64,000 bases of DNA from Pseudofabraea citricarpa. Lineage: Eukaryota; Ascomycota; Leotiomycetes; Helotiales; Dermateaceae. Made by a program: the position numbers and the translations under genes. The first letter of the stretch is position 1. Each line of letters starts with the position of its first letter. Shown here in pieces: positions 29,009 to 64,000 of this stretch. The notes beneath the pieces were generated by a model. The model saw nothing but the letters and a program-made list of their open reading frames with translations, had not been told where the DNA came from and did not search any database. The stretch lies in the NCBI GenBank assembly GCA_029641185.1, contig JAPWGK010000001.1, positions 4,008,178-4,072,177 of the forward strand, in the 5' to 3' direction.

Positions 29009-29753
29009 GGCGCATGCGTCGAAGTCTGTGTACTTTTGTGGCGGGGTGAAGGTCAGACTGAGGGGGTAGAGATAGCTTCACAACCTGGTGTTATTGGGAT
29101 TGTGGCATGGCGAGAGCAGACACAGGCGCATTCGTATTGTGTTGCTCAGCTGTAATTCTTATCGTGTGAGACTTGGGTTTTGGCGATGTGAGGCAGTGCA
29201 GACAGAGGGACGTGAATGAGGAATGGGAATGACGTAGTAGGATGACCTTTGGTTGAGCCAGGCCAGACCACGGGAGAAATCAATATTGAACATGCATAAC
29301 CAAGTCCTAATCTGAGCTGTCAACATGGACGCGACAGCTTTGACTTTTTTAGCCAGCCTTTGGAGAAAGAAGCAAATCCCGGCGATTGAGAGACTGGGTT
29401 GTGCTTCAGGTCAGGAGGTGCAAAAGATCAGATCACGAGGCTACGGTAATCCGAGAGACCCATACCTATCACGTGAGACGCAAAGACGAGGCTGAACATC
29501 GCCATCCCCTCAACACCAACCACCAACCACCAACCACCACCTCCACCACTGACAGAGCCTTGTCGCATCTCACTTCAACTCCTCATAACCACAACCTCAC
29601 ACCAACCATAGTTATCGCGTCTCACTTGCCTCAGCAGCACCTTCACCGATCGATAGTTCTACCGACTCCTCAGCCCTGTCTCCTATAGCGTGTCGACGCG
29701 CCATCCCCCATATCACGACGTCAAGCAATACCATCTGAAGTTAGCCAAACATC
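29009..29753. promoter_or_regulatory. Divergent promoter region between the 5-phosphatase and Dcp1 genes
   Basis: Both flanking genes start away from this stretch. The Dcp1 side is C-rich with ACCACCAACC-type repeats (about 29515-29545), as often seen in fungal 5' leaders. A CACGTG-like TCACGTGAG lies at about 29469. No coding feature. Confidence 0.5.
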
Positions 29754-43990: not shown

Positions 43991-44618
43991 GATGCGGTGC
44001 GGTTCCTTTTCGTGTGCGGGTTCAAGTGTATTGATGGAGGGGGAAATTCTGGGGAAGTGTGGGATGTAGATCTTTAGATCTGTAGGGCTGTTGATGGCTA
44101 TTAATACATTGGCCAGACGGGGCGATATATAGCCGATCATTATTGTCAGATCTTAGATCTCCTATCCTACGCGCTGCTGCTTCTGTCCAATAAAGATAGA
44201 TTGGTTGGCTGGCTTGTATGTGGTAAGTTAAGAGGGCTGCAGATTACTAATCCTGGCTTAAAGCTGCACCAGCTGGTGTACAATTGACATTGACTATAGC
44301 TCATTTTGGAAATATCTAATATCTCGTTTTCCCAGATTTCATCTTGCTACAAATCAGAAGAAGCAGATGATGTCGTGATACTTAATTATTGCAGTGTACA
44401 TTGGATCTAATTTGTAAACTGGGAAGATTTCCAGCCGCCTTCACTCGCTGTGAGTCAACCGGCGATGGCGTCAATGGCGCGCCAAGACCAATCCAGCCGA
44501 AAGGAAAACAACATAGCTAGTAGAGAACCCAGTACAGACCAGAAATATATTAAAGGCAGCCGAAACCAGGAGAACCATCAACTTAGCATCTCATATCGAA
44601 CTTGTTTGAGCCGTATTT
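43991..44618. promoter_or_regulatory. Divergent promoter region between phosphatase and acetyltransferase genes
   Basis: The two flanking genes start away from this 628-base stretch. A TATTAAA-like box is at about 44547. No other gene seen. Confidence 0.4.
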
Positions 44619-45376
44619 ATGTCTTTACTCTCAATCACACTTCTCCACGCCACGCCAGAAGATTACAAAACCCTGGCACGGCTGGAGCAGATTGTTTTTA
44701 AAGACGATGCCTGGAGTGCTGTGGCGTATGGAGCGGATCGTAATTCGGACGAGGCGATTGAGTCTACCGTAGCTGACTTGATACGCCGCCATAAGAATCA
44801 GCCAGACTCGGGTAGTGATGGTGGCTCATGGCAGAAGATTACCAAAGCTGTTCTTGCCCCCGGAGATGAGATTGTGGGGTATGCGGAGTGGAGCTACAAT
44901 TACGGGAAGGAAGTAAAGAGAGAGGAACGCGAGGACGAGGAAAGTGAGGGGAGTGGGTGGCCGCCTGGTGCCAATGTCAAGTTTTGTGAGGATGCTTACC
45001 TTGTCGCCGATGAGTGGATGAAGTCGTCTTGTGATGGCAAACCATTTATGAGTATATCTGCCGTGCAAGCTTCGAGATGAGTTGTAATAACTGATACTTG
45101 ACCATAGAACTCCGGACGCTCTCCGTCTTGCCACAATATCAACGTCACGGCATTGGGACTTTACTGGTTAAGGAATTCTTGCGAGATGTTGATGAATTGG
45201 GGGTGCAAGCTGTACTGGGAGCATCAAAAGAAGGAGAGGGCCTCTATAGAAGGGTTGGGTTTGCAGAGGTGGTTGTTATGGAGTTGGATTTGAGGAAGTA
45301 CAGTGATGGAAGCGAGGGAGCACTGGACTTGGGAGTTGAAAAGCACCTCGTTATGAGGAGATCACCTTCTGAGTAA
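44619..45376 (+). CDS. GNAT-family N-acetyltransferase
   Basis: Exons 44619-45051 and 45108-45376 give 233 residues. The acetyl-CoA site follows the intron: LRTLSVLPQYQRHGIGTLLVKEFL, with the Q/RxxGxG/A motif (QRHGIG), then a Cys-free VQAVLGASKEGEGLYRRVGF, the usual strand 6-helix-strand 7 end (GLYRRVGF). The N-terminal half has the substrate-side strands and an acidic, Ser/Gly-rich insert around 70-125. The GNAT fold acetylates amines of small molecules or proteins; no substrate can be read here. The C-terminus is short after the GF motif. It stands just outside the cluster described below and converges on the cluster's regulator gene; whether it belongs to it is open. Confidence 0.8.
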
Positions 45377-45779: not shown

Positions 45780-48474
45780 TCAGCTACTGCTAAAGCTATT
45801 CGAGCTTGAATCAGGTGTACCGGTCATAGCACTATCGAAGTTTACAGCCATGTCATGATGCATAACATTAACAGACTCTGCGGCCATCTTTATTTGGTCT
45901 GTTAAGAAAATATGTCAGTCTGGTGGCCAAATTTGGGGCCAGTAGAAAAATAACTTACCTCTCATACCACCTAGTGCCTCAAAAGCAATGGAGTAATTCC
46001 TGAGAGCCTCTAGGATCAAGTGCAAACCCTCACTCAATTGATTTATGAGCTTTCCAGCTGGAGATTCTAGCCCACCTTCCACACTTCCCCCAAATCCCAG
46101 CGCGCGTGTCTTATAGCAGAGCATGACCATAGCATAACTACTCTGCATTGCACAGCAAGCAAAGATAGGCATGGTTCGAGGAACCTCAGGCACAAAAGAA
46201 CCGGGAGTTGAGTATTCGGGATGTGCAAGGCTATTGGGATTTGGAAACGGTAATGTTTGAAATGAGCGTGCGATATTGAAAGCTGATTTCATGCAGACTT
46301 TGGCGGAGAAATGGCTGCTGAATGGCAAGAGACCGCAGCCAACTTTTGCAGATGGAGATGACATTGCTGTCGTGTATGCAGATGGTGGCGTGACCATGGT
46401 CATGTCGATAACTGCTTGTACTGTCTGATGGAATTTGCCACTACATGGGCAGACTTGTGTGACTTTGTTTGTTGATGGGTCGTCTCCAGAGGCCTCAAGA
46501 TCGCAATGTTTCTTGTTAAATACTGGAATGTTTGAGAAGGCGCAGTAGCGATGCAGTTTAATTCTGGCACTATTTTGCATCAGCTTCGTTGTCAGGACCG
46601 GGCATACTTGAATCACCTGTTTAGCTTGATTTTTGCCATCCCTCTTAATGCTTGTGAGACTTTGAGCTCAAACCAGTCTAAATCAAGCGGCGGACTTGAT
46701 TCAAGAGTCCATTGATCAGCATCATTCACCAGCGGTTCTATTAGCCCTTCTAAGTCGAGCATTCGATCCCAGATCTCGCTATAGTTTGTTTTGCTTTTTA
46801 AAGTTTTTTCCAGATCGAGCACGAACTGAGTTGCTGATACAATGACTTGCTGAGCCTGAAAGAAAACTGTCCATGCCTATCAAGAAGTCAATCGCGTGCA
46901 TTCTCTACGTTGCCAATATACTTACACCTGGATCGGCTGCAAATGTTGGACCTGGCGTCACAAATCGTGGATCATAGAGAAATATCGTTGGAGACTTTAT
47001 GATATATCAGATGGTGTTGCTAGAGCTTTTAGTCGGTGATGGGGTACTTACTGCGTTACTCAGGATAGAGCCTTGGCACACAAGAATGTACTGGATGAAA
47101 CTTGTCAGGATCGAGATAGCCAGAGGAAAAGCCGGAAACTTACAGTCATCCACCAAGCTCGCCTATCTGCCTCGGCGTATTCCGTCTTTTCGGAGCTTCT
47201 TGAATGAAGATTTAGCCCCATCGCTGCTATTAAGGCTTGACCCGCACGAGTACGAAGTTTGGAAATGTTCCCCCGCTGCGCATATTCGTACGTGCCAAGG
47301 ATGAGCAATGCTAGTATAGTTTCGTTCTCAATCGGGCCTTGACTATGGAATGGCTTCCGTGGGAGCAGAGATGGGCCATGTGTTAGTGCATCACCAGGAT
47401 TCGTCGTGGAATAGAGAAGCTCCGACTCTGTTTCGATAGCTTCAACAGCTGACCGGGCATATGATTGAGCTTGGCCACGTCGTAGTAGTACTGATGCCGT
47501 ATTCTGGGGATCATGATCATCCGGATGTGGAATTAAAGCTAAAGTAGCTGACATTGCCAGTGCAATCGGGGAAGATGGTATGTATTCGGGATCATCATTG
47601 CCATTGTTGTAGTTTCTAGTCTTGGTCTTTAGTTTGTCCACAACTTGTTGTGGCTCGGGTGGCGGTAGGACCGGAAAATATGGGTGAATGAATACATAAT
47701 AAGCATTCAAGCTAGAATGATGTCAATAAACAATGGTTTGACTTGAACTGAATTCGTCTTACATGTCTTCATCACTCCCATAAGTCCTTACCATCGGTTG
47801 AGTTTGTTCAGACCGGTGTGCCTTCTTACAAACTTCAGGAGAGCCGTAACCACTATCTGTGGTCTCGAAATTGTTGGAAAAGATGGTATCAAAAATGAAG
47901 TCTGCGTCATCAGTGCTTGAATCTTGCAAATTCAGTCCTGCCCCAGGCTGTGCCAGGAAAAAGGGCTGTGGAAGAGAGTTTTCTGAACCTTATTGTTAGA
48001 CCATAATTCTTGAGTGGAGTAAATGTAGTACCAATTGCTGGTTGACAAAGTTCCAAAAGATCACAGTGGTCCAGATTGATACCAGAATCGCTTGGTGACG
48101 AGTTTCTAAATTCAACTTGGCTGGTCGTATCGGTCTTCGGCTTGCGTATTCTTGCACCGCCACGTCTACTTTGAGTATATGTGCAGACTTTGTCCTTTGT
48201 TAGACACTATCAATCAATTAATATTTTGCATGGAAAGAGAGCCAAGATATACAGAGCAACGCACGTTAGAGCAAGTAGGTTTTCCATCACAACGAGTCCT
48301 CGAAGCTCGACTTTGACAATCAGCTATCATCAGCTTTAAGGCATATTACATTGCTTACCATGAAAGGCAGGCAAGCTTAACAGGTGGCTTATCAAACTTC
48401 TTCCTGGCTTTTCCGGAGTTGGAGCTCATTGTTACGGTCTGCACAGACTGCGGGGCTTCTTTATCAAATTCCAT
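45780..48474 (-). CDS. Zn2Cys6 transcription factor of the subtelomeric cluster
   Basis: Ten exons, rebuilt from the minus strand: 48359-48474, 48265-48310, 48032-48194, 47763-47988, 47144-47711, 47052-47090, 46926-46994, 46617-46876, 45959-46569 and 45780-45898; 738 residues, in frame to the TGA. DNA-binding part: ACLSCRASRTRCDGKPTC then VCTY, a Zn2Cys6 cluster with Cys36, 39, 46, 52 and 58, followed by a basic RRGGARIRKPK. The fifth Cys does not sit where the family has it; a later donor in intron 2 would add a Cys with odd spacing. A fungal_trans-like region begins at NAYYVFIHPYFPVLPPPE (about 186-200), continuing through YAEADRRAWWM. It faces the biosynthetic genes and is a natural candidate for their regulator. 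A motif shared with those genes lies 359 bp upstream. Confidence 0.8.
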
Positions 48475-49560
48475 GTCTGAACAGATAACGGCCAACGTCT
48501 TCTCGGTCTCTCATGGGCTGCGGCTCAAGAGAGCCTTATTCAGAGATAAGAGAGAGATGGGGCTCTGTCGCTAGAATCAATCTTTGCCAGTCGAAGGTAT
48601 TAGATAAACGCCGAGAATCGCTGCCAAAAGCGATTTATCAATAACTACCACAGGTGGAAAACTGGGTCAAGATTGAGGAAGGCGATGCTCAACAAGATAA
48701 ATGCTTTCTTTTGTGGTTTGTAAAATAGACACGAAGCAGGCGTCGCGCGTCAGTGAAAATCTCCTGATGAATAGAGTTCAGCCCAATCACGAACCCTGTA
48801 TCTGACGATCCAAAGCCCGATTCCGGGATTTGAAAGTGGAGTCAGTCAGAGTCAATCACGACTCAGCAGCAAGCTCTATTGATGACAAATCCATCACGTG
48901 CTGAATGGCAGTTGAGGCAGTCTCGTTCGGCAGTGGCATAAGTTCGCTGGCATTGGTTAGAAAGCACGCAAGTTGGGCTGATATGGAGCCTGCTATTGTG
49001 AATTTCGCATTCCTGAATATTTGCGTACTCGCTACAATGAAAGGCGAGTAGGATCTGGGTACTTCTCAATGGATTTCATATTATGGAGCCTCGTGCAGGT
49101 TTCTTTCTGACCAAGAACTTAAAACACACCGTTCGGCATTAGTTCGTCGTCTTTCATCATCGTATAACCTTAATTTCGATACTCTTCGCCACTGTAGAAT
49201 CATAGGCAGTATAAAAGAGAATTGAAAAGAAGTATACAGGACTTGAGGAAAGCAAGCTTCTTACCGGTTTATAGACAGGTGGTACTGTACTATCAGGTCT
49301 GGAATTATAATTGCGAATAGGGTGGTGTCAGCGGGCTTGTCATTGTGTCGGCGGCGCCGAAGTCTAGAATATCACCTACCGTAAGGCTGAGAAGTCTATT
49401 TTTTGGCCAAGTTCACTACCGGGTTTTCTCCGCAGAAGGATTCGTAGATTTTTGCGGTCTTGTCAATACCTCCTCGAAGTTCATTCGCGAAGCTTTTTTC
49501 TAGTATATGCTTACAAGAACACATAGTACTAAAGCCATCAGTATTTAGTACTAAGACACC
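48475..49560. other. Intergenic, promoter of the cluster regulator
   Basis: No supported gene. Contains the motif CCGGGATTTGAA at 48833-48844 listed below. A short frame at 48863-49069 (-) has many Cys but no signal peptide and is not convincing. Confidence 0.45.
48833..48844 (+). promoter_or_regulatory. Cluster motif CCGGGATTTGAA, copy 1
   Basis: Exact 12-base sequence, 359 bp upstream of the regulator's ATG. The same 12 bases occur upstream of the PLP-enzyme and aspartate kinase genes. It contains CGG, the half-site type usually bound by Zn2Cys6 proteins; binding is inferred. Confidence 0.55.
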
Positions 49561-51111
49561 TTAAAGTATAGCCTTTGCGTCGCTAGCCGTCGAGATATCG
49601 AACTCTTGCTTGCACTAGAGACCATTAGCAAGGCACTGCTGTCCAGAATGCATAAATCGACATACTGCTTCTACAAAGTCGTAATTGAAAACCCAATCCA
49701 TGCCACCTGCCGCCTTTAAGAGCTCGAATTTAGCGACACTTGGATCCATAGCCTCCTTCATCTTTTGATCACGATGACGCTGCTCGGTTCCATTGGGCAG
49801 GGCCTTGTACAGGCCAGTCTGCAGAGCGATGGCTTTTATTCTCTCGGTCCGCGGTTTGCGAATTCTCTCGTATGCATGCAGAACGTCGGGAATTCCGTCT
49901 ACAGAGCTGGCATACCCGATGCATTCAGCAAGACACCCTCCATCTTCGATTGCTGTTGAGGCACCCTAGCATTATATTAGCGATGGTCTTGGGGTTTATG
50001 CAATAGAGCCTTTAATATACCTGGGCAATGTGAGGCACCATTGCATGAGCAGCATCGCCAAGCAATGTCACCTTACCGCTTGGACTAACCCAGGTATCGA
50101 GGTCAGGAAGATACGCTATTCTCCAGAGCGATACATCATTAGGATCTACCATGTTGATGAAAGATTTTAGCCTGGGCTCGAAATCTTGAAGATATGCTGT
50201 CATAGCAGCCTTGTTTCCTCTTGAAAGACTATCGGCAAAGGATTCCTTGGATGGAAGAATCGTCTCATCTTTCTCAGCCGCATTCATAACTGTAAGTGTG
50301 ATAGTAAATAGATCGTTGTGCCCATCTGAACCACCAACTATATTTCGCCCAGGTGCAAACCAAGTATTTACAGTATCTTTGTCCATAGAAGATGCCGTTA
50401 TAGGATTATTTCTGACCAGCTCGCCTGGGACAAATGTTTGAAAAGCGAGACTTTCTGGGATTGGCTCGACATCTCGTCCGATCACCACGGAGCGAACGGC
50501 TGATCTGATGCCTGTAAAATCACATCGTTAATAGGTGATGCATAAGATATTCTCTCATTGGCGACCCAACTCACCATCGCCTCCAACTATAAGATCAGCA
50601 TCCAGCTTCTCACCAGAAGCCAACATGATAGATGCTGAACTTTCGTCGAAACTTTCGATTATGGATGAAAGTCTCACGTCGACTCCGAGATTCACAGCAG
50701 CATCGTATAGAATACGCTGAATATTAGTTCTAGAAAGTCCAAGCATACTATCTCCAGGTAAGTCATGAGTCAAAAAGTTTAGCGAGTAGCTTATATCATA
50801 ACATACTCGTAGCCAAATGTGCTTTTTGTGCCCTCGAAGCTGATACTATCAAGGACCTCGCCAGTATCGTAACGGTATGTGGTATGATGGATAGGGAGAG
50901 CAGCAACTTTCTCCAGCTCATCATAAAGACCAAAATGGCCCATCACACGCAATGCATTGGGTGATACCAGTATTCGCCCGCCGATGTCTCTCAACTCAGC
51001 AAAGCGCTCAAGTACTGTCACGTGGTGACCCTTGCGTCGCAAGCCCACTGCAGCTGTAAGTCCTGCGATACCAGCGCCAACAATTATGATTCGAAATTGA
51101 TTTACTGTCAT
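49561..51111 (-). CDS. FAD-dependent aromatic-type monooxygenase (salicylate hydroxylase-like)
   Basis: Five exons (50807-51111, 50575-50747, 50021-50511, 49666-49965, 49561-49614) give 440 residues. The N-terminal dinucleotide fold is IIIVGAGIAGLTAAVGL (Gly12, Gly14, Gly17), ending with the acidic TVLERF. Residues 150-160 carry the DG motif (IVGGDGIRSAVR), and VTLLGDAAHAMVPHIAQGA includes Asp312, which contacts the FAD ribityl chain. These are the three marks of group A flavin monooxygenases, which hydroxylate with NAD(P)H and oxygen. The acceptor could be an aromatic ring or an enolic/amine carbon. It is collinear with the PLP-enzyme, aspartate kinase and acetyltransferase genes, so it is probably a tailoring enzyme, but it lacks a clear copy of the cluster motif. 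Confidence 0.85.
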
Positions 51112-51925
51112 GGTTGCGAGTTACTGAAAATGAGAGAATAGAACACTTCAGAGTGTAATCAAATTGGGCAAATCTTTCAGGTTATGAAGCAGGATATATG
51201 TACCCATCCTGATTCCTGTATCATATTGAATGAGGAAAATATGGGGGGCTCCAAGACAGAAATGACTCCACTGTGAAGATATTCATTGGGATTTTCGACG
51301 TCCACCATACCTCTGTAACACGCTGATCTATGGGGACTCACATAGTATACAAACCGGTTACATTTTAGAACCGTCTTCCGAAGTGGACACATCGGACATT
51401 CGGGTCCCGAGTTCTCAGGTTTTAGCGCCGGACTTTCTAAACCACATCGAAGCAGCTTTGCAATGGTTTTTGTTTTCTTACAGAAGATCCAATTGGTAAA
51501 GAGTAGTCTAGGCGATGGGTTTTATCAAAGCTTATAGTCTTCGACGTAATTCTGGCTCTTCTCTTGTCGCGTCGGTTATTCAAGTCAGCTTTAAATATAC
51601 ACTTACAGTTAGGCCCAGATTGGCAGTTTCATAGGTTTATCCTTTGATGTGAGCAAAGAAAATGGATGAGAAGTTTCTCGTCCGACTTCATTTATCTCAA
51701 TCAATATATGTCAGTGAAAAGCGCGAATAGACAGCTATTTTTCTATGACTCGTTTAAATTTTCTTTCTACTCAAGCTACGTCGCTTTCTCCGAAATGTAC
51801 ATGCCCCGGGTATATTCAGCTAAAACTGTGTTGCAAATACTACCATATCACAGAAACAAAGAACAAAGGATGTACTTGTCTTAACATATCGCGATATCCA
51901 TCCTTGACAAACACCGAATCTAATT
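51112..51925. other. Intergenic, promoter of the monooxygenase gene
   Basis: No supported coding feature. A partial match to the cluster motif (GGGATTTTCG at about 51288) is present but not exact. Confidence 0.4.
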
Positions 51926-53373
51926 TTATTTTACGCTCGCTTGGATGCCAGCGCCCTCGAATGCCTGCTGAAAGTCGTGGATTATGTCGTCGATGTGCTC
52001 CAAGCCCAAACTCACTCTGATTAAATCGGGAGTGACACCTGCTTGAATCTTCTCCTCGTCTGGAAGTTGTTGATGTGTTGTGCGCCAAGGATGAATGATC
52101 AATGTCTTTGCATCGCCAACATTGGCGAGATGACTGCAAAGCTTAAGATTGTCTACTACTGCACTGACCTGCTCAATAGTGCCATCAACCCCAAACGTCA
52201 ACACACCGCCAAATCCATTCTTGAGATTGGCCTTGGCGTATTCGTGATCTGGATGTGATTTTAACCCAGGGTATAGCACCCACTTGACCGAAGGATGAGA
52301 TTCGAGCCATTGCGCAAAAGCGAGCGCATTTTGATTGTGGCGCTCACCACGGAGGCTAAGTGTTTCTAGACCCATAAGGAACAGCCAAGCATTAAAAGGA
52401 CTCATGCAAGGGCCTAAGTCACGCATCGCATCCATTCTCACCTTTGCTGCGAGAGACTTGAAGCCATACGTGTCCCAAAACTTCATGCCATGGTATCCAT
52501 CTGCTTCCTCTGTGAAGCCTGGAAACTTCCCACTCTTTGACCAATCAAACTTACCACCGTCGATTACAATTCCTCCCATGCTAGTACCATGACCACCAAT
52601 CCATTTGGTGGCACTGTGTGTAATGATATCTGCACCGAGAGAGAATGGCCTTTGAACGTATCCACCCATTCCAAAGGTATTGTCGCAAATAAGAGGGATT
52701 CCTGCGTCATGAGCCACTTTGGCGATGGCTGCAATATCTGGGACATTGTGCTTTGGGTTTCCAATGGTCTCGATGTATACCGCTCGGGTTTTGTCATCAA
52801 TGGCCGCCGCGATATCTTGAGGATTTTGTCCTTCTACCCATTTGACGGTGATATTGAACTTTTTAAGGTAGACTCGAAACTGGTTGTAGGTACCACCATA
52901 TAACCAACTGGTACTCACAAGATTGTAGCCTGACTCCATGACCGATGTAATAGCCATGAACTGATGACGAGGTCGTTATTAATGTCTTGTACGAGGCTTT
53001 TGTAGCTTGAGTTGGGGATGCTTACCTGAGCAGCGTGACCAGATGCTGTTGCAACAGCACCAACACCCCCTTCAAGCATCGACATACGGTTTTCAAAAAT
53101 CGAGATTGTCGGATTACCCATTCGGGTATAAACATAGCCATCTTTGGCCCATGCAAATTTGCTTGCTCCGTCTGCAGCATCCATGAAATTGTATGAGCAA
53201 GTCTGAAAAAGCGGGACAGCTCTAGATCCATTGATAGGGTCAGGCTCTTGTCCACCATGAGCTTGAATTGTTTCGAACTCCGGCTCTCTACATTTGAGTT
53301 AGCTGGAGAATCCAAATCACTTTCTTCTATGTGCTTACTTTGTGATTCCCCGTAGGGATCCGGATGCAGGCAT
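51926..53373 (-). CDS. O-acetylhomoserine sulfhydrylase-type PLP enzyme (Cys/Met metabolism family)
   Basis: Exons 53339-53373, 53026-53287 and 51926-52960 give 443 residues. The family core is complete: [14 protein letters not shown] near the start, then [14 protein letters not shown], the [10 protein letters not shown] motif with Lys218 carrying PLP, and R/W residues of FGGVLTFG. Standard enzymes add sulfide to O-acetylhomoserine to make homocysteine. Near relatives such as Fub7 of fusaric acid biosynthesis instead join a carbon nucleophile to the same C4 intermediate. Sequence by eye does not decide between the two. It stands next to aspartate kinase and homoserine acetyltransferase, which would make its substrate; that arrangement points to the second role. 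A cluster motif copy lies 400 bp upstream. Confidence 0.88.
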
Positions 53374-54094
53374 AATGAGAGATTGGAATCTTTCAGCAGA
53401 AGAGAGTTTTCAAAAGTTCTTCTTTGGCTACAAGAAACTTGATCGATGTTTATCTGCAAGTGAATCTAGAATTATTTTGATATGCTCTTGAAGTGACTTG
53501 GAGATATAGCACTTGATATATTCCCTGCTTTTCTTATCAATACAGCCAAGTTGCCAATGTCTGGAACTTTGAATATTAAGGTCAAATACCGATATCTTCG
53601 TCTAGATATGACAAATCCCTAAGATGAGATTTACCTCGGAGAAATGTAGGCATTCCACATTTACCCCACCTGATAATGTGCTCATGATGTCTCTGATTGT
53701 CTAACAACTTCATGCACGAGTTTCACTTGGTTATGATGGGTGCATAGAGTGGTACTGTGGTTCTAGATTCATTCAAATCCCGGATTTTGGATCTGCCTTG
53801 CATGAAAGCCGAGTAAGCAACATGCTCATTTTTCACTCCGACGGAGCTCCGTATTTATCCAAGGCAAAGATATCACATTGGTATGATCAAAGACGCCTAC
53901 AGTTTACTAGTGTAGATATGATCACCATTGAAATTGTGATAGGTACTTTCCAGTCAATTTGTCTCCCCGTGTACAAATACCAAACAGAATATGCCAGAAG
54001 CCACATGATACCCGCCCACTCAAATAATACTCCAGACTCTTGATGCCAATGGAACAAACAAAGATTGAAAACTGCTTAGACATTTAAATATGTC
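53374..54094. other. Intergenic, promoter of the PLP-enzyme gene
   Basis: Contains cluster motif copy 2 (53772-53783). No gene seen; the 3' end of the aspartate kinase gene lies at the right. Confidence 0.45.
53772..53783 (-). promoter_or_regulatory. Cluster motif CCGGGATTTGAA, copy 2
   Basis: Exact match on the minus strand (TTCAAATCCCGG on the plus strand), about 400 bp upstream of the PLP-enzyme gene, which is itself on the minus strand. Confidence 0.55.
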
Positions 54095-56009
54095 TCAAAA
54101 TAGCCATGGACCTTAAGTAGTCAGTTTCTGTGTTAACTTCAATAATGGAACTGACCTTGCATGAGACTGCTTGACCCATTAGTAGTGATATGTTTTGTAT
54201 GCTGCGGTATCCTCAAAACATTCAAATGAACAATCTCTAGAGCTAGTAGAGCATCCGATGCCCTGACAACACACCTGATAATCTATAAGCAGTTTGAATT
54301 GAAACATACTTGGTAGAATACTCACGAAATATTGATCTCGCTAGCACCCTGGCTAATAAGATAGATGTTCACTCCAGCTTCAGCCAGCTTGGAGAATACC
54401 TCGCCTATTGAATGAGTTAGAGAACTGTTTCTAGAATAAGGTAGTAAGCTTACCGGCAATGCCAACCATGTTTCTCATCCTGTGACCGATCACCGAGATG
54501 ATAGCCATTTCTTTCAAAATTTCCACTTTTCCAAGCTTTCCAAGGTTTGATGATAGTTGACTGATCTGAGCGAGATTGTCAATAGCCGGTATAGCAAGAC
54601 TTATCGACTGTTCGCTAGTAGTAATCAAGTCAGCAACGACATTAAGTCGATCAAGTGCTTGGAACACGTGTGATAAGAATCCGTGTGATTTCAACTGCCC
54701 ATCTGATTGAATATTTACTAGTAAAATGGAATCTTTAGAGGTAAGTGCAGTTGGCGTCTTGCGGTATTGTAGCTCCCCATAATATCCATTGGCAGCCATA
54801 AATGAGGGCACTGAACTGCTCAAGGACTTGGTAGAGAAAGGTGTTTGAGTAGGCGAGCTGTCAGGAGAGCTTGAAGATGGATATATGATTGTGCCACGCC
54901 CACCGGGATTTTTGACGTTCTTAAGCCTCAATGGAATATTGGCTCGGCGAATTTGCTGCATTGTCAACGGATGGATAACTTCGCTCCCGTAATATGTAAG
55001 TTCCGTCGCCTCTTCCAGCGTGATAGTCTCCAACAAGCGAGCCGATGGAACCTTTTTGGGATCTGCCGTGAAAATTCCATCCACCTCTTTCCAAATTTGA
55101 AGCTCAGCAGCCAAGAGGCCAGAAGCACACATAGAAGCACAGAAATCAGAGTATCCACGGCCAACACTTTGAATCATTGAATATGGCATCATGCCAAAGA
55201 ACCCTGAAATGGCCTGATTAGAAAGTGGTATCATTACAAGAGCAGTACTAACTTACCTGTTATGACTGGCACACTGTCCCGACATGCCTCCAATTTCAAT
55301 CCAATTTCTTCTGCCAACCCATCAAAGAATTGTGGACCAAGATTATCATATGCCGATTTTTGAACAGAATAGTCGCTGGTGTAAACTTCAGAGACAATAT
55401 CAATCAAAGATACAACTTGTGCGTGGATTCCCTAGCGAGGTTAATAAAATTTCAAAGCATTTAATAACTATAAACCAACCTTGACTAAAAGAGAAGTGAC
55501 AACAAGCAGACAAGCAAGCTTTTCTCCGGTGGCTAGTATTCGATCCTTGGATCTAGGAGAGAGTTCGCCAATTGTCTGCAGCTGTCAGCACTTTACATCG
55601 CAAAAGGATTTCTAAGACCCACCTGAGCTGCTATAAGAAACGCACGTAACTCGTCACATTCTTTAATTATATCTACTTCCAGCTCATCGCATATTTGAGA
55701 TTGGTGTATAGAGTTTACACTTATCCGTATCTCCTTGCTGGCTTTCACGTGTTGGTCTTGGATTGTTGAAATTGTAGCCTCCAGATTGTCTAAAGAACCA
55801 GCCATGGCAGAATCAATCGCCCGAAGAAGCAAACTCGTAGTTCCCATTGACTTCGTAGTTCCCGAAATTGCTGAGCATACAACAGCAATGTTGTTCTCTT
55901 TCAAGTACTGCGGAACGATCGTTATGGTGATGGTTTCTAACAGTTTTCCCAGGCTGGTTCCTCCATACTTTTGCACTATCCATGGCCTGTCCTTGATTGC
56001 TCCTGGCAT
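54095..56009 (-). CDS. Aspartate kinase (aspartokinase)
   Basis: Seven exons (55623-56009, 55480-55575, 55257-55431, 54454-55203, 54326-54404, 54156-54274, 54095-54111) give 540 residues, the usual fungal Hom3 length. Markers: VQKYGGTSLGK (residues 12-22), then GRGYSDFCA, WKEVDGIFTADPK, TYYGSEVIHP, and two ACT-type regulatory domains after residue about 390 (SILLVNIQSD, MAIISVIGHRM). It phosphorylates Asp to aspartyl phosphate, first step to homoserine, threonine and methionine; primary copies are inhibited by threonine through the ACT domains. As an extra, cluster-borne copy it would supply homoserine, as FUB3 does in fusaric acid biosynthesis. I cannot tell whether it escapes feedback. Cluster motif copy 3 lies about 125 bp upstream. 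Confidence 0.85.
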
Positions 56010-56639
56010 TGTGATTTCGGCTGCACTGTTTCTTTACTACCCACGACTTCGTTTTCGAAGAAACAGCCGCCCATGTACATGTATATCATGTTCCCGTGAT
56101 AGGGATTCTCGTATACTCGGCATTTGAAAGACCCGGGATTTGAATATCTTTAGGTCGGAACGAGGAAAGAAACTGTGCCACGCTGGCACGTACCTAGAGA
56201 GGAAGTTTTCACGGAATCTATTTGTGGCAGGAATATCCCGACTTTCAGAAGTAGGTGGGAGATGTCTTTTATCCAAGGTTCGGCCTACTTGTGTAAGATT
56301 GTAAGACGCCAAGAATCTTACATACATTAGTACACGGAGCTTCGGCCCGGGGTAGGTAGTGGAAGGAATACCAGGATTACATCAAATGACCGGATACTGA
56401 AAGTCTTACAGCTTTTTCAAAAGAGGAGAAGAAAAAAGAACGAGGAAGAAAAAAGCTTTTCATTATACTCCAAGGTGATAATTTCGATTCTTACGGGAAA
56501 TGTTTTTTTGCCCCATGGGGCTCAACTGTCTTGTACGATTGCATCAAGTGGAAACTTAATTGCGTGTTATATTCTTTCTGGTTTTAAAACTCGCTAGGTA
56601 GCTAGCTATCTTTGATATATGAAAATCGTTGTATATTTG
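56010..56639. other. Intergenic, promoter of the aspartate kinase gene
   Basis: Contains cluster motif copy 3 (56133-56144). The 3' end of the homoserine acetyltransferase gene is at the right. No gene seen. Confidence 0.45.
56133..56144 (+). promoter_or_regulatory. Cluster motif CCGGGATTTGAA, copy 3
   Basis: Exact match about 125 bp upstream of the aspartate kinase ATG (gene on the minus strand). Confidence 0.55.
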
Positions 56640-58064
56640 TCACCAACTAGATTCAACCTCACCAAAGACACTATCTTTAACAGTTTTTACATCGCTCTGG
56701 CTTGGTATCGCTGGGCAGTCATATACCCAGCTGAGGTGTTTCTTAAGATGCTGTGTAATAAGATGATCAAGGCTTGAGAATGCAAGAAGGAAACCATCAT
56801 GTCCCTCAGCCGAGTCTATCATAACAAGTTGTGCATCAGGTAAAGTATCAGCTAGAACACGTTGCTGTCTGTGACTGAACAATATATCTGACTCCACACC
56901 AATTACAAGTGAGTGCGGCGGTACGATACTGAAGACTGTCTGAAGTTTTGTCAAATAGTCCTCTTCCGTGTCTCCAGATTGCATTTCGTCCCGGCCGCGC
57001 AGGACATCATGCCTGTCCATTTTGTGCGTAATATGTATGTAACAGTTTGCATCGAACCGGCGAATAAACTTTTGCCCTTGATAATTGAGGTAGCTTTGAA
57101 CCGAGAAACTGGAAGATGGCGAAAAGGTCATGCGGGATTCTGTTGCTAGTGATTCGAGCTCAGGCGGAGGCGAAGGAAGATGGCGCGGACTTGGCTTCCC
57201 AGGTATTGGGCTTTGCATATTCCTTCTACTAAAACGTCTGTCAAAAGATAACTCAGAACGGTAGGTGAGCATTGCAATCATCCTAGCAGCGGAAAGACCC
57301 GCGATTGGCTGAGTTGCTGGCGTTGGCATGTAATAGCCGTTCTTAAATCTAGAATCTGCGGCAATGCATTGTCTTTGAGTTTCTGCCCATGCTATTCCCC
57401 AAGCACTGTGATCTGCTGATGTTGCAATTGGTATTATAGATTTGATGTAGCCTTTGAGAGTGCATAGCGGCCATTCGAGAGTCGCCATACCACCCATAGA
57501 TCCACCAATAACAGAAACGACACTTTTGACACCTAAAGTATCTAATATCAATTTATGTAACCTGGTTCTGTCAGCAACAAGACTGTATATCTCATATCTA
57601 AAACTGACCGAACATCATCTCGTATAGTAGTTTGTGGGAAATCAGGACCATATGGGTTTCCGGTAGCTGGATTTATGCTTAATGGTGACGTTGAACCATA
57701 TGGCGAGCCCAGGACATTGCCACAAAACACAAAATATCGTGACGTATCGAAGGCTTTTTCATCTCCAAGTAATGGCCCCCACCAATCTTCTACATCACTG
57801 CTTCCCGAAAGAGCGTGGCATATGACCAAACAGTTTGATCCCTCAGCATTCAGCTTTCCCCAGGTTTTGTAACCAACATTGACGTTATGAAGTGTAACAT
57901 CAGATTCGAGGGTGAAGGTATCGATTATTGCAAATCTCTGCTCATCTACAAAATCATAATACTCGCAAGAGTAAGTTGGAGTGTTCTGGAGTCCTGAAAA
58001 GTCAGTCAGTCAAACTATACTTTATTCTCTTTCTTATGAACTCACTAATCGACATTTCTTTCAT
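56640..58064 (-). CDS. Homoserine O-acetyltransferase (alpha/beta hydrolase, MetX/Met2 type)
   Basis: Exons 58046-58064 (six codons only), 57609-57993 and 56640-57561 give 441 residues. The hydrolase fold is complete: LVICHALSGSSDV near the oxyanion hole, nucleophile Ser156 in IGGSMGGM, Asp360 in VESDILF and His389 in SAEGHDGFL. Acetyl-CoA plus homoserine gives O-acetylhomoserine, the substrate of the neighbouring PLP enzyme. The start is set by the tiny first exon, whose GTGAGT donor joins in frame to LQNTPTYSCEYY; a second Met three codons on is equally possible. It shares a divergent 366-bp promoter with the nitrilase gene, which suggests they are switched on together. It corresponds to FUB5 in the fusaric acid cluster. 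Confidence 0.86.
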
Positions 58065-58430
58065 CAGATATTGCTGCGATTTTTAAATGAATATGCAGTA
58101 AAATCTTTCAGCATTAGTTTTGGTCTCACTGATTATCGCTTCAGAAGCTATAGCCTGTCTATTACCACTCATCCCCGAATTATCAGGTGGTGTCAGCTTC
58201 AATTCCCGGTGGTGTCACGTGAAATTGGCTCTCGGGATTTGCTCAATGCCTTCAATGCCCGGGTCTGGATTGCTATCGGGGGGACTCGGTGTGTAACAAT
58301 GTACATGAATCGATGACAGTCAAGATAGGATTTAAATTATGGAGCTCCGATAAGGTTATGGCAAGAGTGAAATAGCAGCAGCAAACGTTTGGAACTTTCC
58401 ATTTTTTCCGTCCTGGTTAACTCAACTACA
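58065..58430. promoter_or_regulatory. Divergent promoter, homoserine acetyltransferase and nitrilase
   Basis: 366 bases between two start codons. Holds the nine-base motif core at 58233-58241. GGTGGTGTCA occurs twice, at about 58186 and 58208, the second copy running into a CACGTG. Confidence 0.55.
58233..58241 (+). promoter_or_regulatory. Cluster motif core CGGGATTTG, copy 4 (shortened)
   Basis: Nine of the twelve bases of the cluster motif. It lies 169 bp from the acetyltransferase ATG and 190 bp from the nitrilase ATG, so it could serve both. Confidence 0.42.
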
Positions 58431-59784
58431 ATGGCACGAGCTCGTGAAAGCGTCAAGATTGCCGCAATACAGGCTGCACCAGTTGCTTTCAATCTAGATC
58501 AAAGTCTTCAAAAAGTAGAGGAGTTTACGGCAAAAGCCGCTCTACAAGGTGCTGAATTGGTTGTTTTTCCGTGAGTAAATAGCTACGCATTGCATTACTT
58601 CAGAGGTGGCGCTGATGAAGATAATCCTTTCAAGAGAAGCATTCTTGTCAGCATATCCATGGCGATACGCTTTCGATGCTACGGTTGGAACTCGTGAGCC
58701 GCGAGGTAAATTTTGAGATAGATGGGTCTTCTCCGATAATGATGTTGCTTATTGCTGAACAAAAAAAAACGAATAGGACGAGTATGGTATGCAAAATATC
58801 ATGACTCTGCTGTGGCGATCCCATCCCCGGAGTTTGACGTACTTCGAGGAACTGCAGAGAAGCACAATGTGTGTATTTCAATTGGCATCATTGAAAAGCA
58901 AGGCGGAACGCTTTACTGCACTGCGGTTATCATCGGAAAAGATGGAACGCTTCTTAACAAGCATAGAAAAGTAATGGAATCCTATGCTTTTACTTAAACC
59001 GCTGACAATAATAGCTTATTCCAACAGGGGTCGAGAGGCTCGTCTGGGGTAGAGGGGCAGGTGATTCTTTGAAAGTTGTTGATGCAGGATTTGGCAAAAT
59101 GGGAGGACTTATTTGCTGGGAAAATTATATGCCTGCAGCTCGGATGGCCCTCTATCAGCTTGGAGTTGAGTATGTGTTTGAACTTGTCTAATGTAGCGGA
59201 TGCTTACAATGATGTGACAGGATTTATATTGCACCAAATGCAGATGATCTCCCAGCTTGGACAGCTTCCATGCAACACATAGCAAAGGAAGGACGATGCT
59301 TCGTTATCAACGTCAATCAATTTTGCAAAGTATACTGACCCAACTACTACCTTGATAGATGCTAATGTAACAAGGTCTCTGACTTTCCAGTGGATTATCC
59401 ACCTTTTACGAGCGAACACCACGATAGAAAGGCTGACGGGTCCAAGTGGGAACCTGAAGATATTCTAAACCATGGTGGTTCATGTATAGTAGGCCCACTT
59501 GGTACTTTTCTTGTAGACCCTGTGTGGGACAAAGAAGAAATTATTTATGCCACGCTGCGGTTGTCGGAATTGACAGAGGCCAGAGTAAGACCGGGACCAC
59601 CCAAAAAGGCGTATCAAAGGCTAACAATCAACTGTAGATGGACTTCGATCCAGTTGGCAGCTACTCCCGGCCTGATATCTTGTAAGTTTAAGCTGAGTAT
59701 ATCTCCTGGCATGAACTAATAATCTCAAGCAATTTGACTGTAAACACGAAGCCCGCAATAAACGTCGCGTTCGAACAATCATAA
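58431..59784 (+). CDS. Nitrilase (carbon-nitrogen hydrolase)
   Basis: Eight exons (58431-58570, 58635-58705, 58777-58970, 59015-59169, 59221-59329, 59375-59584, 59638-59681, 59730-59784) give 325 residues. The Glu-Lys-Cys triad is complete: Glu48 in VVFPEAFLSAYPW, Lys135 in HRKLIPTG, Cys169 in GGLICWENYMP. The SAYPW and ICWENYMP forms are those of true nitrilases, not amidases or ureases. It would turn a nitrile into an acid plus ammonia. No nitrile step is known in fusaric acid synthesis. With an O-acetylhomoserine enzyme beside it, one idea is hydrolysis of a cyano-amino acid formed from cyanide; another is a true pathway intermediate. The last two exons are small but join in frame to a TAA. 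It is the only plus-strand gene of the cluster. Confidence 0.85.
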
Positions 59785-60100
59785 GTAATGTGTAAATATC
59801 CACAATATATTGTGAGATCCAAGAATGGAGGTGGTTAAGATGACGTGGATGATTTATACAAAAGGCTGGAATGTTTGGCAACCAGGAAAGCAATTGCCAC
59901 TTGGACCAGACTGTGCCACATGCACTCAGTTAAAACCGGTACAAAAATGCAATACTCATTCACTCGCTTCAAAGAATTCAATGTGATTAGAAGACCTCTA
60001 AAATTTAAAATGTTTTTATTGAATAATTCTTGTATAATTTATTTATCCGAGCAAACCCCAATCTCTAATCTATTGTTTCTATTTGTTTATCGCATTTGTA
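59785..60100. other. Intergenic, convergent 3' ends
   Basis: 316 bases between the nitrilase stop and the NRPS-like stop. AT-rich; no feature seen. Confidence 0.4.
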
Positions 60101-62511
60101 TCAACACGGTTCTTCACGCGGCTCAATCAGTACCTCATTCACAGCAACATGCTGAGGCTGCCCCAGCGCATATATAATCGAGGCTGCTACGTCCTCCGGG
60201 TCCAAGACTTTAGCTCCCGTTGGTTCACCGTACTTCTTAATAGCCTCCGCATCTGTTGACATTCCTAGCAATTCCGTGGCCGTGTTTCCAGGCTGCACGC
60301 TGGTGACACGCAAACCAGTATCAGCAGTCTCAAGACGTAGTGCTTGTAGTGTAGCCTCAACAAAAAACTTGCTCGCAGAATACACTCCCAAGCCAGTAAA
60401 CACCTTTCGCCCCGCATCCGATGATATGGCTACAATATGCCCGCTGCCACGAGCTAGCATACCAGGGACGGTAGATGACAAACAGTGCAACAAACCCTTG
60501 CAGTTGACATCGACCGTGCGGTCCCATTCTTCAACTTGTACATTCGCCATCATGGTAAAGTACATAACACCAGCGCAGGAGACTAGGATGTCAATGGGTC
60601 CTAACTCCTCAGTGGCTCTCTGCATAAGACTCTCAACTTGCGTCCGATCTGTGACATCAGTCTGGTGAATAATGACTTTGCCATTGTGAGGGGCGAGCTT
60701 CTGCTTCACCTTCTCAAGAGACTCGATGCGTCGGGCAGCTAGAGCAACATGTGCCCCTGCTCGTGCTAGAGCTGTTGCGACTGCAGCACCAATACCAGAG
60801 GATGCACCTGTTACCACTGCTACACGTCCACTAAATGGCCCCTTCTGCAAAATTGACGTAGAGCCGTTGGACTGGTTTCGGCGTGGTGGCCGTGGCAACC
60901 AACCTCTGGCATACCAGTGACGAGAGTATGTTTCTAACAGCTTACTGTCAACCTTTGGGCGTTGAATGCTTTCAAGAGCAGACTTAGTTGCATTGTCACC
61001 GAGGATAGTGATGTATCGTAAGAAATCAACGGTCGGCATTCCACCACGAAGAATATCAACAGTGAAAGCACCATCGCCACCTTTAGCCGAGCCTCTTTTC
61101 TCGGTCCAAAGAGCAACCCACGCATCCCAATCAAGTTGCTGGGTCGGATAGCCGAGTTCAGAAAGGCCATCGAAAATTGATTTTGTGTCCACGGGATCAG
61201 GATCTCCGATGTGGAATACTCGCTGCTTAGTGTGATTTTGGTTGGAAATCGTAATAATTGCTTTACTGACGAAGTCGACCGGAGTCATTTCAGCTCGCCA
61301 ATGATCAATGTTAGGGGCATAACCAATTTGCAGTGACTCCACAAATAATGCAGTCATGAGGTCCCAGGCGTTCGTTGAGCCTGACGTGCTGTGACCGCTG
61401 ATAGTGCCTGCTCGTAATATGCTCACTGGCAATCCACGACGACCTGCTTCGTGAACAAGCTGCTCTGCCGCCCATTTTGTCTGACCATAACCATCAACCA
61501 GCTTTTCGGGTACAGCATCCACATCAATCATGGATTCTTCCGGCCAGCTATCATTAGACGGTGGGAGCACACCATTTGTGGAAATGTACTGCAACGTAGC
61601 GCCGCTTTGGCAAGCCAGACGCAGAATTTCTCTGGTTCCACCGACATTGGCACCTCGCAAAGCAGCATAAGGATATACAAGGTTGACAGTTGCTCCAGCG
61701 TGAATGATGACTTGAATTCGGGTCGCGAGTTCATCGAAATCATCGGGGGAAAGACCAAATCGTTTCTGGGCCAAATTCCCGGGGAGGACCTCGATGCGAT
61801 CAATGATGGAGTCTTTCCATAATCCCAAATCGAGGAGATTCCTACGGATCCTTGCAATACCGCCAGGCTGATCATCCCCGGCAGGCTCATTGAAACGCAC
61901 GAGGCACACAACACGAGCAGATGTGCTTTCTAGAATGTCGCTGAGTAGGAAAGCGCCCAAGAAACCAGTGGCACCAGTCAGGAGTATAGTGTCAGCTTCT
62001 TTCAGAGGACACATCACAGCACCTGATGGTTGGATGTCTGGAGGTAGAATTGAGTCGGCCCGCAATATTGCTGGCAAGTCTGCTTGCACTGCTGCAGTAT
62101 GTCCATCACGAGCAGAGCAGACAGCTTCTAGATGACCTTGAAGCGTGGGATTCACAACTAGAGAGGCTAGAGGCACTGTAAACCCGTGGGCCTTTGAAAG
62201 TCTAGCAGCAAGATCTGCTAGCGTCAAAGAATGTCCACCGAGGTCAAAAAAATTATGTTCGATCGTCACGGCACCAGCTGGTATGTGAAGGGATGCGGCC
62301 CAAGTGGCAGCAATATCTTCAATGGTTATCTCGGTGTTTTGAGCAGCCTTCGTATCACTGCCGAGAGGAGTAGTTACCCCCGACTTGCTTGCCCCAGGAG
62401 GAGGCAGGCGTTTGAAGTCGGCCTTTCCAGAAACTTCATGAGTGGGAAGCTCATCAAGTTCCACCCAAAGAGCTGGAATCATGTACTGTGCGAGACTTTC
62501 AGAGAGTGTTC
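60101..62511 (-). pseudogene. NRPS-like reductase, carrier-reductase-dehydrogenase part only; adenylation domain missing
   Basis: A single open frame of 793 codons from Met at 62482, with homology running about 10 codons further upstream to 62511. The start falls in the last part of an adenylation domain (YMIPALWVELDELP, then SGKADFKRLP, the A10 motif). Then come a carrier domain (FFDLGGHSL, Ser85), a thioester reductase (ILLTGATGFLG, 166-176; YGQTK, Tyr332/Lys336) and a second, classical short-chain dehydrogenase (VTGASSGIG, 557-565; YSASK, Tyr701/Lys705). This carrier-R-SDR order is that of fungal ATRR-type NRPS-like enzymes. Intact relatives carry a 500-550-residue A domain before this, which loads an acid and reduces it to aldehyde or alcohol. 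Nothing of it can be found upstream: the sequence stops at a run of ten A and enters AT-rich DNA. It could still be expressed as a carrier-reductase protein. Confidence 0.83.
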
Positions 62512-62521
62512 TTTTTTTTTT
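62512..62521. repeat. Ten-T run at the breakpoint of the NRPS-like gene
   Basis: Ten T on the plus strand, hence A10 on the coding strand, exactly at the edge between coding homology and AT-rich DNA. It could be the poly(A) end of a retroposed element that inserted here, or chance. Confidence 0.5.
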
Positions 62522-63693
62522 CCAGGTCTTATACTTAGTATTAGATTACCGTTTCTTGTGATAATCACTTGTGAATTAACGTTATATCTTGAAGAACAAG
62601 CATAATAAGGAACAGCATAAAGGCGGAGCTTCTATCTTACGGAGAATAATAATCTAGACCTAGTCTACTACAAATATTTGAGCTTACTTTAGATCGTATA
62701 GCTATTTATCACGACAGAATCCTATGGATATATTATTAACTATGATATTTATTTGAAGTTAACCTATTATTTTAAATCAAAGTTTATTCTAACCTAAAAG
62801 AACTAATATTTATAATTCCTGTAACTAACAAATTATATTTAACGATAATTCTAGATAAGTCGTCGCTTACGGCCGTCGCTTCTAGTTTATCGCTAGTAAA
62901 CTACTTGTAAGATAAACGAATAAGAACAAAGAAATAACCTCGATAATTCGATAATACTACTAAGCTAAGTCCGTTGGTTTCCCAAAACTGGTACTTATCC
63001 CAAATACCACGTAAAATACCACGTAGAGGTAGACTTTTGTTTAAGTAGCTACCTTTAGCTAGGGCCCGTGTAAAGGCGGTAGGATCGAACCACGATAACT
63101 AATATTACTACCTTAATCGTAACGAAAGTATTATCTAAGATAGAGGCCGAACTCTATCGGCGAGACCAAAAGATCCTGTATCTAAGTTTATTATTATAGG
63201 ACCCCTCGCCCTACACGAATAAGTACCTATCTCCGAGACCGAAAGTATATGATTTATTAGTATTAATATATTTATCGCAAGGCTTTGACTTACTATTATT
63301 AGTAGATTTATAATTAGCTATACTAAATTTACTATGTTTATAATTTATATAGTATAATTTGCTACCGTTCCTCTACTCCGTCGAGCTTAGCTTATTATTC
63401 TTATCCTAAACCGATAATATCGTGATAAAGGGTATACCTTTAGTAGTAGTATCTTCCGGCGCGTATATAATATAAGTAGTATTATACTATAATACCAAGG
63501 ATATTATCCCGTTAATTTCTTGTATTACTATTATTAGCAAAGTATCTAGAGTAGCAAGGTATAATACTACTAGCGTAGTAGCTATAACCGGAACGATATA
63601 ATAAGCTAAAGGGCTTATAATTACGTCGGTTCGCGGAGACTTTAATAAATACTCGGGCGATTAGGAGTAATACCGTTATAATAGCGTAGCAGG
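62522..63693. repeat. AT-rich subtelomeric DNA with the look of repeat-induced point mutation
   Basis: From here on TA is very common, CA and TG are scarce, while CG dinucleotides persist (for example in 63061-63240). That is the expected trace of CpA to TpA mutation of a duplicated sequence. No complete frame remains. Short direct repeats such as AAATACCACGT (twice, about 62999-63023) survive. It is probably a decayed subtelomeric repeat or transposon. It separates the broken NRPS-like gene from the telomere. Confidence 0.6.
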
Positions 63694-63913
63694 TTATATC
63701 TCTATGCCTTTGCCTTTGTTTATGACCAGAGTCTCCCTCGCGTCTAATTCCCTCTCCCTGGTATTTAACTCTTCTTCCCTCCTTTTTAATCGTGCTAACT
63801 CCTTCTCCCGTATTATAAGATCTCTCTCTTTCTCTTCTATTATTTTTACTCTTATTACCAGGTCTCTCTCCGCTACTACTAACTCCCCCTCTCTGCCTGC
63901 AAAGGGTCTAGCG
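63694..63913 (-). pseudogene. Coiled-coil coding fragment abutting the telomere
   Basis: On the minus strand an open frame runs out of the telomere repeats for about 73 codons to a TAA at 63694-63696. It is rich in Glu, Arg and Lys in heptad pattern (AERDLVIRVKIIEEKERD, REKELARLKRREEELNTRER). It has no Met. ATA codons are many, as if partly point-mutated. The frame stays open in the repeats themselves (reading Asn-Pro), so the true beginning has been lost at the chromosome end. It may be the tail of a transposon protein or a subtelomeric gene. Confidence 0.5.
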
Positions 63914-64000
63914 TTAGGGTTAGGGTTAGGGTTAGGGTTAGGGTTAGGGTTAGGGTTAGGGTTAGGGTTAGGGTTAGGGTTAGGGTTAGGGTTAGGGTTA
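63914..64000 (+). repeat. Telomere, 14.5 copies of TTAGGG
   Basis: Perfect TTAGGG repeats from 63914 to the end of the window (87 bases), oriented with the G-rich strand running to the right. This marks the chromosome's right end. The base sequence just before (GGGTCTAGCG) is degenerate and not repeat-like. Confidence 0.98.

Follow-up and report, generated by a model that had tools for sequence, protein, structure and literature searches.

What would a fungus do with an aspartate kinase, a homoserine O-acetyltransferase and an O-acetylhomoserine enzyme of its own, set side by side near a chromosome end and next to a nitrilase? The question is raised by the final 64 kb of contig C1 of Pseudofabraea citricarpa (genome of 43.99 Mb in 43 contigs, here C1, C2 and so on), that is C1:4,008,178-4,072,177, a stretch that we call the window and that closes at the contig end, C1 totalling 4,072,177 bases. 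The original prediction placed seven gene families here, namely a Zn2Cys6 regulator (TF), an FAD monooxygenase (FMO), an O-acetylhomoserine pyridoxal-phosphate enzyme (PLP), an aspartate kinase (AK), a homoserine O-acetyltransferase (HAT), a nitrilase (NIT) and a reductase resembling a nonribosomal peptide synthetase (NRPS), and likened them to part of the fusaric acid (FUB) cluster of Fusarium. Gene models and Pfam matches place all seven families where they were predicted, six of them intact (TF, FMO, PLP, AK, HAT and NIT, 45,780-59,784) and the reductase truncated. The best explanation, in our view, is a small regulated metabolic cluster near a chromosome end, composed of TF, PLP, AK, HAT and NIT, with FMO an uncertain member. 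That these predicted genes form a dedicated O-acetylhomoserine pathway in which the nitrilase takes part, whatever the nucleophile, we consider probable.

An additional supply line under putative shared control

Further copies of AK, HAT and PLP exist elsewhere in the genome: AK has one on C7 (43% identity over 508 amino acids, aa), HAT one on C5 (51% over 417 aa) besides a 36% relative on C1, and PLP has relatives on C8 (57%), C15 (58%), C14 and C22, plus weaker ones, these identities being computed against composite paralogue proteins. The clustered, extra line of O-acetylhomoserine supply that had been proposed from the sequence therefore stands. Two other origins for the three genes are ruled out, one being that they are the primary methionine/threonine genes, which is incompatible with the further copies, and the other that they arose by recent duplication of primary genes, which is incompatible with the low identities. 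Consequently, the clustered genes are extra and old, neither the sole set nor fresh duplicates.

A promoter motif joins most of these genes. The 12-base sequence CCGGGATTTGAA occurs exactly upstream of TF, PLP and AK, and the divergent promoter shared by HAT and NIT holds both CCGGGAATTGAA, which differs from it by one mismatch, and the shorter CGGGATTTG (positions in Table 1). The latter has five copies in the window against 0.57 expected, four of which lie upstream of TF, PLP, AK and HAT/NIT and one elsewhere, while CCGGGATTTGAA has 11 exact sites genome-wide, three of them in the cluster, compared with five for the reversed control pattern. Since visual inspection had first brought the motif to notice, a control was run with 3000 sets of five random non-ORF regions (regions outside open reading frames, ORFs) of matched lengths, drawn from a pool of 57 stretches and 45,547 bases: only 14 of the 3000 sets shared a 12-mer in at least three regions, and 19 a 9-mer in at least four. 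These counts support the treatment of TF, PLP, AK, HAT and NIT as one putative regulon. The FMO gene is doubtful in this respect, since it lies between TF and PLP, yet its upstream region contained no CCGGGATTTGAA copy within three mismatches in a motif scan; the earlier assignment of its family and place is upheld, and its presumed membership is put in doubt. No link to the pathway was seen at the other eight genomic sites, where the ORFs of all eight stretches were inspected and one ORF was run against Pfam. At one of these (C2:1022900-1025300), the motif stands just ahead of a PALP-family gene (PF00291) that by eye resembles a serine/threonine dehydratase.

A separate subfamily of O-acetylhomoserine enzymes

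The window PLP passes, over its full length, the family cut-off for O-acetylhomoserine sulfhydrylases (TIGR01326, 600.7 bits vs 495.1). In a midpoint-rooted tree of 27 rows (in which C14 and Fub7 are long-branched, and from which the 722-aa Parahypoxylon PLP, P0135, was left out), it forms one clade with 17 listed relatives (support 100/100, branch length 0.58), and the opposite side, also at 100/100, unites Fub7, the C8, C15 and C14 copies and the ascomycete Met17-type rows. Pairwise identities point in the same direction, given that identity to Fub7 is 70% for the C8 copy and 52% for the window PLP, with 57% between the latter two. Judged by its sequence, the window PLP is a member of a separate, patchily distributed subfamily and is not a Fub7 orthologue, so that the likeness to FUB, where it was meant as homology, fails for this enzyme. 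Among the matches listed, the subfamily is scattered over Tricladium, Cadophora, Rasamsonia, Paecilomyces, Lepidopterella, Dendryphion and Hypocenomyce, and further over Fusarium solani, Nothophoma, Grosmannia, Daldinia, Hypoxylon, Nemania, Seiridium and others. Subfamily-specific residues exist (e.g. A49, D51, M227 and W291), none of which could be tied to a nucleophile.

Linkage of the enzyme and the nitrilase in other fungi

Linkage in relatives was compared for PLP and NIT only, among the best 120 matches of each, where a row stands for a 90% cluster, the longest contig is given per entry, and absences mean little. Among the matches listed, the PLP subfamily is present in 17 named taxa, seven of which also appear among the nitrilase matches, and in five of these seven, drawn from four classes, PLP and nitrilase lie on contigs of identical size: Tricladium varicosporioides (Leotiomycetes, 546,617 bases), Rasamsonia emersonii (Eurotiomycetes, 99,514 bases), Lepidopterella palustris (Dothideomycetes, 20,183 bases), Dendryphion nanum (Dothideomycetes, 277,843 bases) and Parahypoxylon ruwenzoriense (Sordariomycetes, 5,748,124 bases, a contig too large to say much). 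We infer that same-sized contigs within one species are the same contig, the 20-kb and 99-kb cases being the telling ones. Together with the motif in the promoter that it shares with HAT, this linkage argues that the nitrilase is probably part of the cluster, as originally supposed. Relatives of both genes are listed in the Hypoxylaceae, and the main text of a survey of that family makes no mention of nitrilase, homoserine or aspartokinase (PMC8403587).

The best match of NIT among solved structures is plant NIT4 (287 bits, with the next at 174; 42% identity). All four catalytic residues, E76, K163, E170 and C197 in AtNIT4 numbering, are kept as E48, K135, E142 and C169, and so is the pair Arg95/Asp317 (here R67/D295), whose equivalents occur in 38 and 39 of 40 fungal rows, respectively. 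In NIT4 specific for β-cyanoalanine, this pair is reported to keep the lid loop locked (PMC6637149). Furthermore, two characterised fungal NIT4-type nitrilases prefer β-cyanoalanine as substrate, and the close homologues of one of these two, NitAb, reportedly number several hundred in the Ascomycota (PMC7503981). The predicted protein is thus consistent with a short amino-acid nitrile as substrate. In a nitrilase tree of 45 rows, 14 of whose 42 inner branches are open, the window NIT and that of Tricladium fall in one Leotiomycetes group (100/97) with their order unresolved; the remaining PLP-linked nitrilases sit among rows of their own classes, and exceptions to taxonomy occur elsewhere in the tree (e.g. 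Rasamsonia stands apart from Paecilomyces).

A possible route of cyanide capture

A potential explanation for this combination of genes is the capture of cyanide. The clustered AK and HAT would make O-acetylhomoserine from aspartate, with aspartate-semialdehyde dehydrogenase and homoserine dehydrogenase, the enzymes of the two steps in between, presumably supplied by ordinary genes, and PLP would then swap the acetate of O-acetylhomoserine for a nucleophile. The most economical nucleophile would be cyanide, which we favour because it joins the PLP and NIT steps without any further enzyme: O-acetylhomoserine and hydrogen cyanide would give γ-cyano-α-aminobutyrate, which NIT would hydrolyse to glutamate/glutamine. 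Such a route would amount to cyanide capture and nitrogen recovery, one carbon longer than that of the plant cyanoalanine synthase and NIT4. We put this mechanism forward tentatively and, taken whole, judge it somewhat likelier to fail than to hold, its substrate, nucleophile, direction and product being what we infer from sequence.

Parts of the scheme have counterparts. An O-acetylhomoserine sulfhydrylase forming γ-cyano-α-aminobutyrate was reportedly described by Omura in 2003, and to our knowledge no linked kinase, acetyltransferase or nitrilase is known for the bacterial γ-cyano-α-aminobutyrate synthase. That enzyme, from Bacillus stearothermophilus, shares with the window PLP its family by name and the reaction proposed here, and differs in being bacterial. 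Formation of γ-cyano-α-aminobutyrate by the O-acetylhomoserine sulfhydrylase of B. stearothermophilus is described in PMC9317851, and the enzyme is also tabulated (PMC13257105). The plant β-cyanoalanine synthase and NIT4 likewise pair a PLP enzyme with a NIT4-like nitrilase that keeps the lock residues, whereas O-acetylhomoserine, longer by one carbon, would serve as acceptor here and the PLP belongs to the Cys/Met-metabolism (Met17) family. We found no described cluster of this make-up in the open-licence literature, judged by titles and abstract openings. What we rate as new is not the clustered O-acetylhomoserine supply, which is known from FUB, but its combination with another PLP enzyme and a nitrilase. 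The broader proposal, that this is a previously undescribed fungal cyanide-fixing cluster whose PLP-nitrilase core extends across four classes of Pezizomycotina as an independent counterpart of the plant cyanoalanine pathway, is possible but rather doubtful. The cluster names a concrete candidate, namely the product of the PLP enzyme that adjoins the nitrilase, and, if the mechanism is true, γ-cyano-α-aminobutyrate would serve one family of fungal nitrilases as a natural substrate.

Several observations weigh against cyanide capture, or against the linkage and regulation on which it builds. The initial spotting of the motif by eye is one, and a 10-mer shared by at least three regions arose in as many as 183 of the 3000 random sets, which makes that a weak test. 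Contigs for PLP and nitrilase differ in size in Paecilomyces variotii (144,558 vs 56,375 bases, the strains differing as far as given) and in Xylariaceae sp. AK1471 (145,885 vs 4,789,445 bases). Among the matches listed, the Tricladium PLP is the closest to that of the window (90%), yet the nitrilase on its contig is just 67% identical, so PLP and NIT may not share one history; nitrilases nearer to the window NIT, those of Coleophoma (80%), Scytalidium, Acephala (78%) and Lachnellula (77%), come from fungi with no PLP relative listed. The lock pair also occurs in a bacterial row (Afipia), in one other row outside the fungal group and in a nitrilase on C24 of the same fungus, and is therefore weakly discriminating; two pocket residues of NIT4, Leu169 and Ser224, are replaced by V141 and D196, so that the nitrilase offers consistency with a short amino-acid nitrile and not proof. 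Moreover, we know of no activity for the PLP subfamily, its supposed use of cyanide being read from the partner gene, and the mechanism leaves FMO unexplained. The nearest solved chains of FMO are an FAD-binding protein, a '4-hydroxybenzoate decarboxylase' and a 'decarboxylative vanillate 1-hydroxylase'; that FMO serves in the use of the aromatic moiety of cyanogenic glucosides is no more than an idea.

Alternative functions

The strongest alternative, which we regard as a live possibility though on balance doubtful, is that the cluster makes a γ-substituted amino acid: PLP would add a carbon or nitrogen nucleophile, NIT would hydrolyse an intermediate nitrile and FMO would decorate the product. 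Fub7, CndF and LolC all join carbon or nitrogen nucleophiles to a homoserine skeleton, and secondary metabolism typically shows what is seen here, genes for precursor supply clustered close to a telomere together with a Zn2Cys6 regulator of their own; the adjacent FMO and the scattered distribution of the PLP subfamily fit as well. The loline cluster (LolC, LolA, LolF) is alike in pairing a γ-substituting O-acetylhomoserine PLP enzyme with an aspartate-kinase-like gene. It also comprises genes of the decarboxylase, 2OG oxygenase and P450 types, none of which is among the genes modelled in the window. Further points against such a biosynthesis are the position of PLP outside the Fub7 group, the lack of a transporter among the genes modelled in the cluster region and, in an ORF-level look, the lack of a frame of NRPS or polyketide synthase (PKS) size in the window other than the truncated reductase. 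In particular, no PKS-size frame was seen at 1-45,000 of the window, in agreement with the original prediction, among 19 stop-to-stop ORFs of at least 180 aa (nine of which were run against Pfam); the sole frame there above 1,000 aa matches Exo_endo_phos2, a phosphatase domain, over its first 368 residues.

Alternatively, the genes could be a duplicated module for methionine/homocysteine supply, with sulfide or methanethiol as nucleophile and the nitrilase adjacent by chance. The score of PLP above the sulfhydrylase cut-off agrees with this, as does the fact that the window NIT is less close to the nitrilase of Tricladium than to those of species lacking a PLP relative among the matches listed. 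Conversely, the PLP subfamily is separate and long-branched, PLP and nitrilase occupy same-sized contigs in five taxa of four classes, and the motif lies in the divergent HAT/NIT promoter, and we consider this explanation unlikely. Breakdown of homoserine or O-acetylhomoserine as a nutrient, through γ-elimination to 2-oxobutyrate, is far less probable still: HAT and PLP would be capable of it and the use of homoserine is known among fungi (PMC2725324), but AK serves to make precursors of homoserine and does not belong in its breakdown, and NIT would be left unexplained. A degenerate or variant FUB cluster can practically be dismissed, for although AK, HAT and the O-acetylhomoserine PLP are families common to FUB3, FUB5 and FUB7, Fub7 itself is nearer to the C8 copy and groups with the Met17-type enzymes, no PKS-size frame was seen in the ORF-level look, and the reductase is of another kind.

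A truncated reductase and the chromosome end

The original prediction saw in the reductase an FUB8-like cluster gene. This assignment is overturned, as the gene is a truncated glycine-betaine reductase (ATRR, also NPS10), orthologous to it and differing in that its adenylation (A) domain is missing and it is cut at the subtelomere. The open frame (60,101-62,545) is stop-free and belongs to a 5'-truncated gene, and where an intact enzyme has the order A-T-R-R the remnant has T-R-R only. It is 70-85% identical over 97-100% of its length to the best 120 of 2061 matches (7999 candidates scored); among those listed, one carries the name Glycine betaine reductase ATRR, several are annotated as 'nonribosomal peptide synthetase 10', and the closest relative is that of the leotiomycete Phlyctema vagabunda (Helotiales, Dermateaceae), at 85%. 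An A-T-R-R gene is reported from each genome of the Hypoxylaceae survey, where it is filed under primary metabolism (PMC8403587). The identity of the gene, its truncation and the subtelomeric junction rule it out as the reductase of the cluster or an FUB8 analogue, and the remnant is not evidence on cluster chemistry.

The A domain of Phlyctema has 54 matches in the P. citricarpa genome, the only orthologous piece being its last 34 aa, found at the window (88%). A domain split off to another place in the genome is thereby ruled out, the long matches being at most 33% identical and short pieces reaching 48% over about 60 residues. ATRR homology ends at about 62,512, and the sequence that follows is 93.5-94% identical to the end of C23, a contig that itself starts with telomere repeats. 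The simplest account would be a chromosome break within ATRR, healed by the subtelomere of another chromosome. The window remnant was the only ATRR orthologue found in the genome, which seemingly lacks an intact copy. In Coleophoma, nitrilase and ATRR lie on contigs of identical size (1,661,738 bases), and the neighbourhood of these two genes may therefore be old.

These results bear on how FUB-like loci are recognised. The FUB gene list includes FUB3, FUB5 and FUB7 (PMC6738028), and the window cluster resembles FUB in holding its own AK and HAT (alike at family level), an O-acetylhomoserine PLP and a C6 regulator. It differs in that no PKS, hydrolase, FMN oxidase or CAR-type reductase was seen in it, in its PLP subfamily and in having a nitrilase. 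The view that this is not the FUB pathway is borne out by the PLP tree, the Fub7 identities and the identity of the reductase. More generally, a set of AK, HAT, O-acetylhomoserine PLP and NRPS-like genes is no safe sign of FUB-likeness, and we advise caution because the two most FUB-specific members here, PLP and the reductase, both turned out otherwise.

Gene models and neighbouring genes

Manual splicing, with GT-AG introns 43-71 bases long, yielded the gene models in Table 1, which are predictions. Among NCBIfam models, AK scores 313.4 bits with TIGR00657 (cut-off 208.7), and HAT 357.5 with NF001209 (cut-off 331) and 415.1 with TIGR01392, the last being under its cut-off of 500. The best solved structure for HAT in the PDB is a deacetylcephalosporin C acetyltransferase, which we take as fungal kinship and not as function. 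The Fungal_trans match of TF (PF04082) barely reaches its cut-off (23 vs 23 bits).

Table 1 Predicted genes, motif copies and end sequences of the window (positions counted from its first base)
Feature	Position	Strand	Remarks
TF, Zn2Cys6 + fungal_trans	45,780-48,474	-	10 exons, 742 aa; PF00172, 29.4 bits
FMO, FAD_binding_3	49,615-51,111	-	4 exons, 439 aa; PF01494; membership doubtful
PLP, Cys_Met_Meta_PP	51,926-53,373	-	3 exons, 443 aa; PF01053
AK, AA_kinase + ACT domains	54,139-56,009	-	6 exons, 540 aa; PF00696, PF22468
HAT, MetX-type	56,640-58,064	-	3 exons, 441 aa; PF00561
NIT, NIT4-like, CN_hydrolase	58,431-59,784	+	8 exons, 325 aa; PF00795
ATRR 3' remnant, T-R-SDR domains	60,101-62,512	-	A domain missing; neighbour, not counted as member
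CCGGGATTTGAA upstream of TF	48,823-48,834	+	exact
CCGGGATTTGAA upstream of PLP	53,772-53,783	-	exact
CCGGGATTTGAA upstream of AK	56,133-56,144	+	exact
HAT/NIT divergent promoter	58,065-58,430	.	366 bases, between HAT and NIT
CCGGGAATTGAA	58,198-58,209	-	shared HAT/NIT promoter
CGGGATTTG	58,233-58,241	+	shared HAT/NIT promoter
CGGGATTTG, fifth window copy	29,373-29,381	-	outside cluster
Sequence shared with end of C23	62,514-63,898	.	
Telomere-type repeats	63,903-64,000	.	sequence repeats at contig end

Beyond the inner edge of the cluster, a GNAT acetyltransferase gene (44,619-45,376, + strand) adjoins TF, and a gene of the Y_phosphatase3 tyrosine phosphatase family (43,000-44,152, - strand) marks the inner edge of the region. 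Pfam also identifies a GMC oxidoreductase at 30,907-32,109 (- strand); the GMC family takes in plant hydroxynitrile lyases, and GMC enzymes are common in fungi. An ORF of 374 aa (16,886-18,007, + strand) looks, by eye, signal-like at its N-terminus, and Pfam gave it no match at E 0.001. Away from the window, a large NRPS-like gene lies at C2:82052-99715, where an open frame of 7,359 aa gives several matches to A domains.

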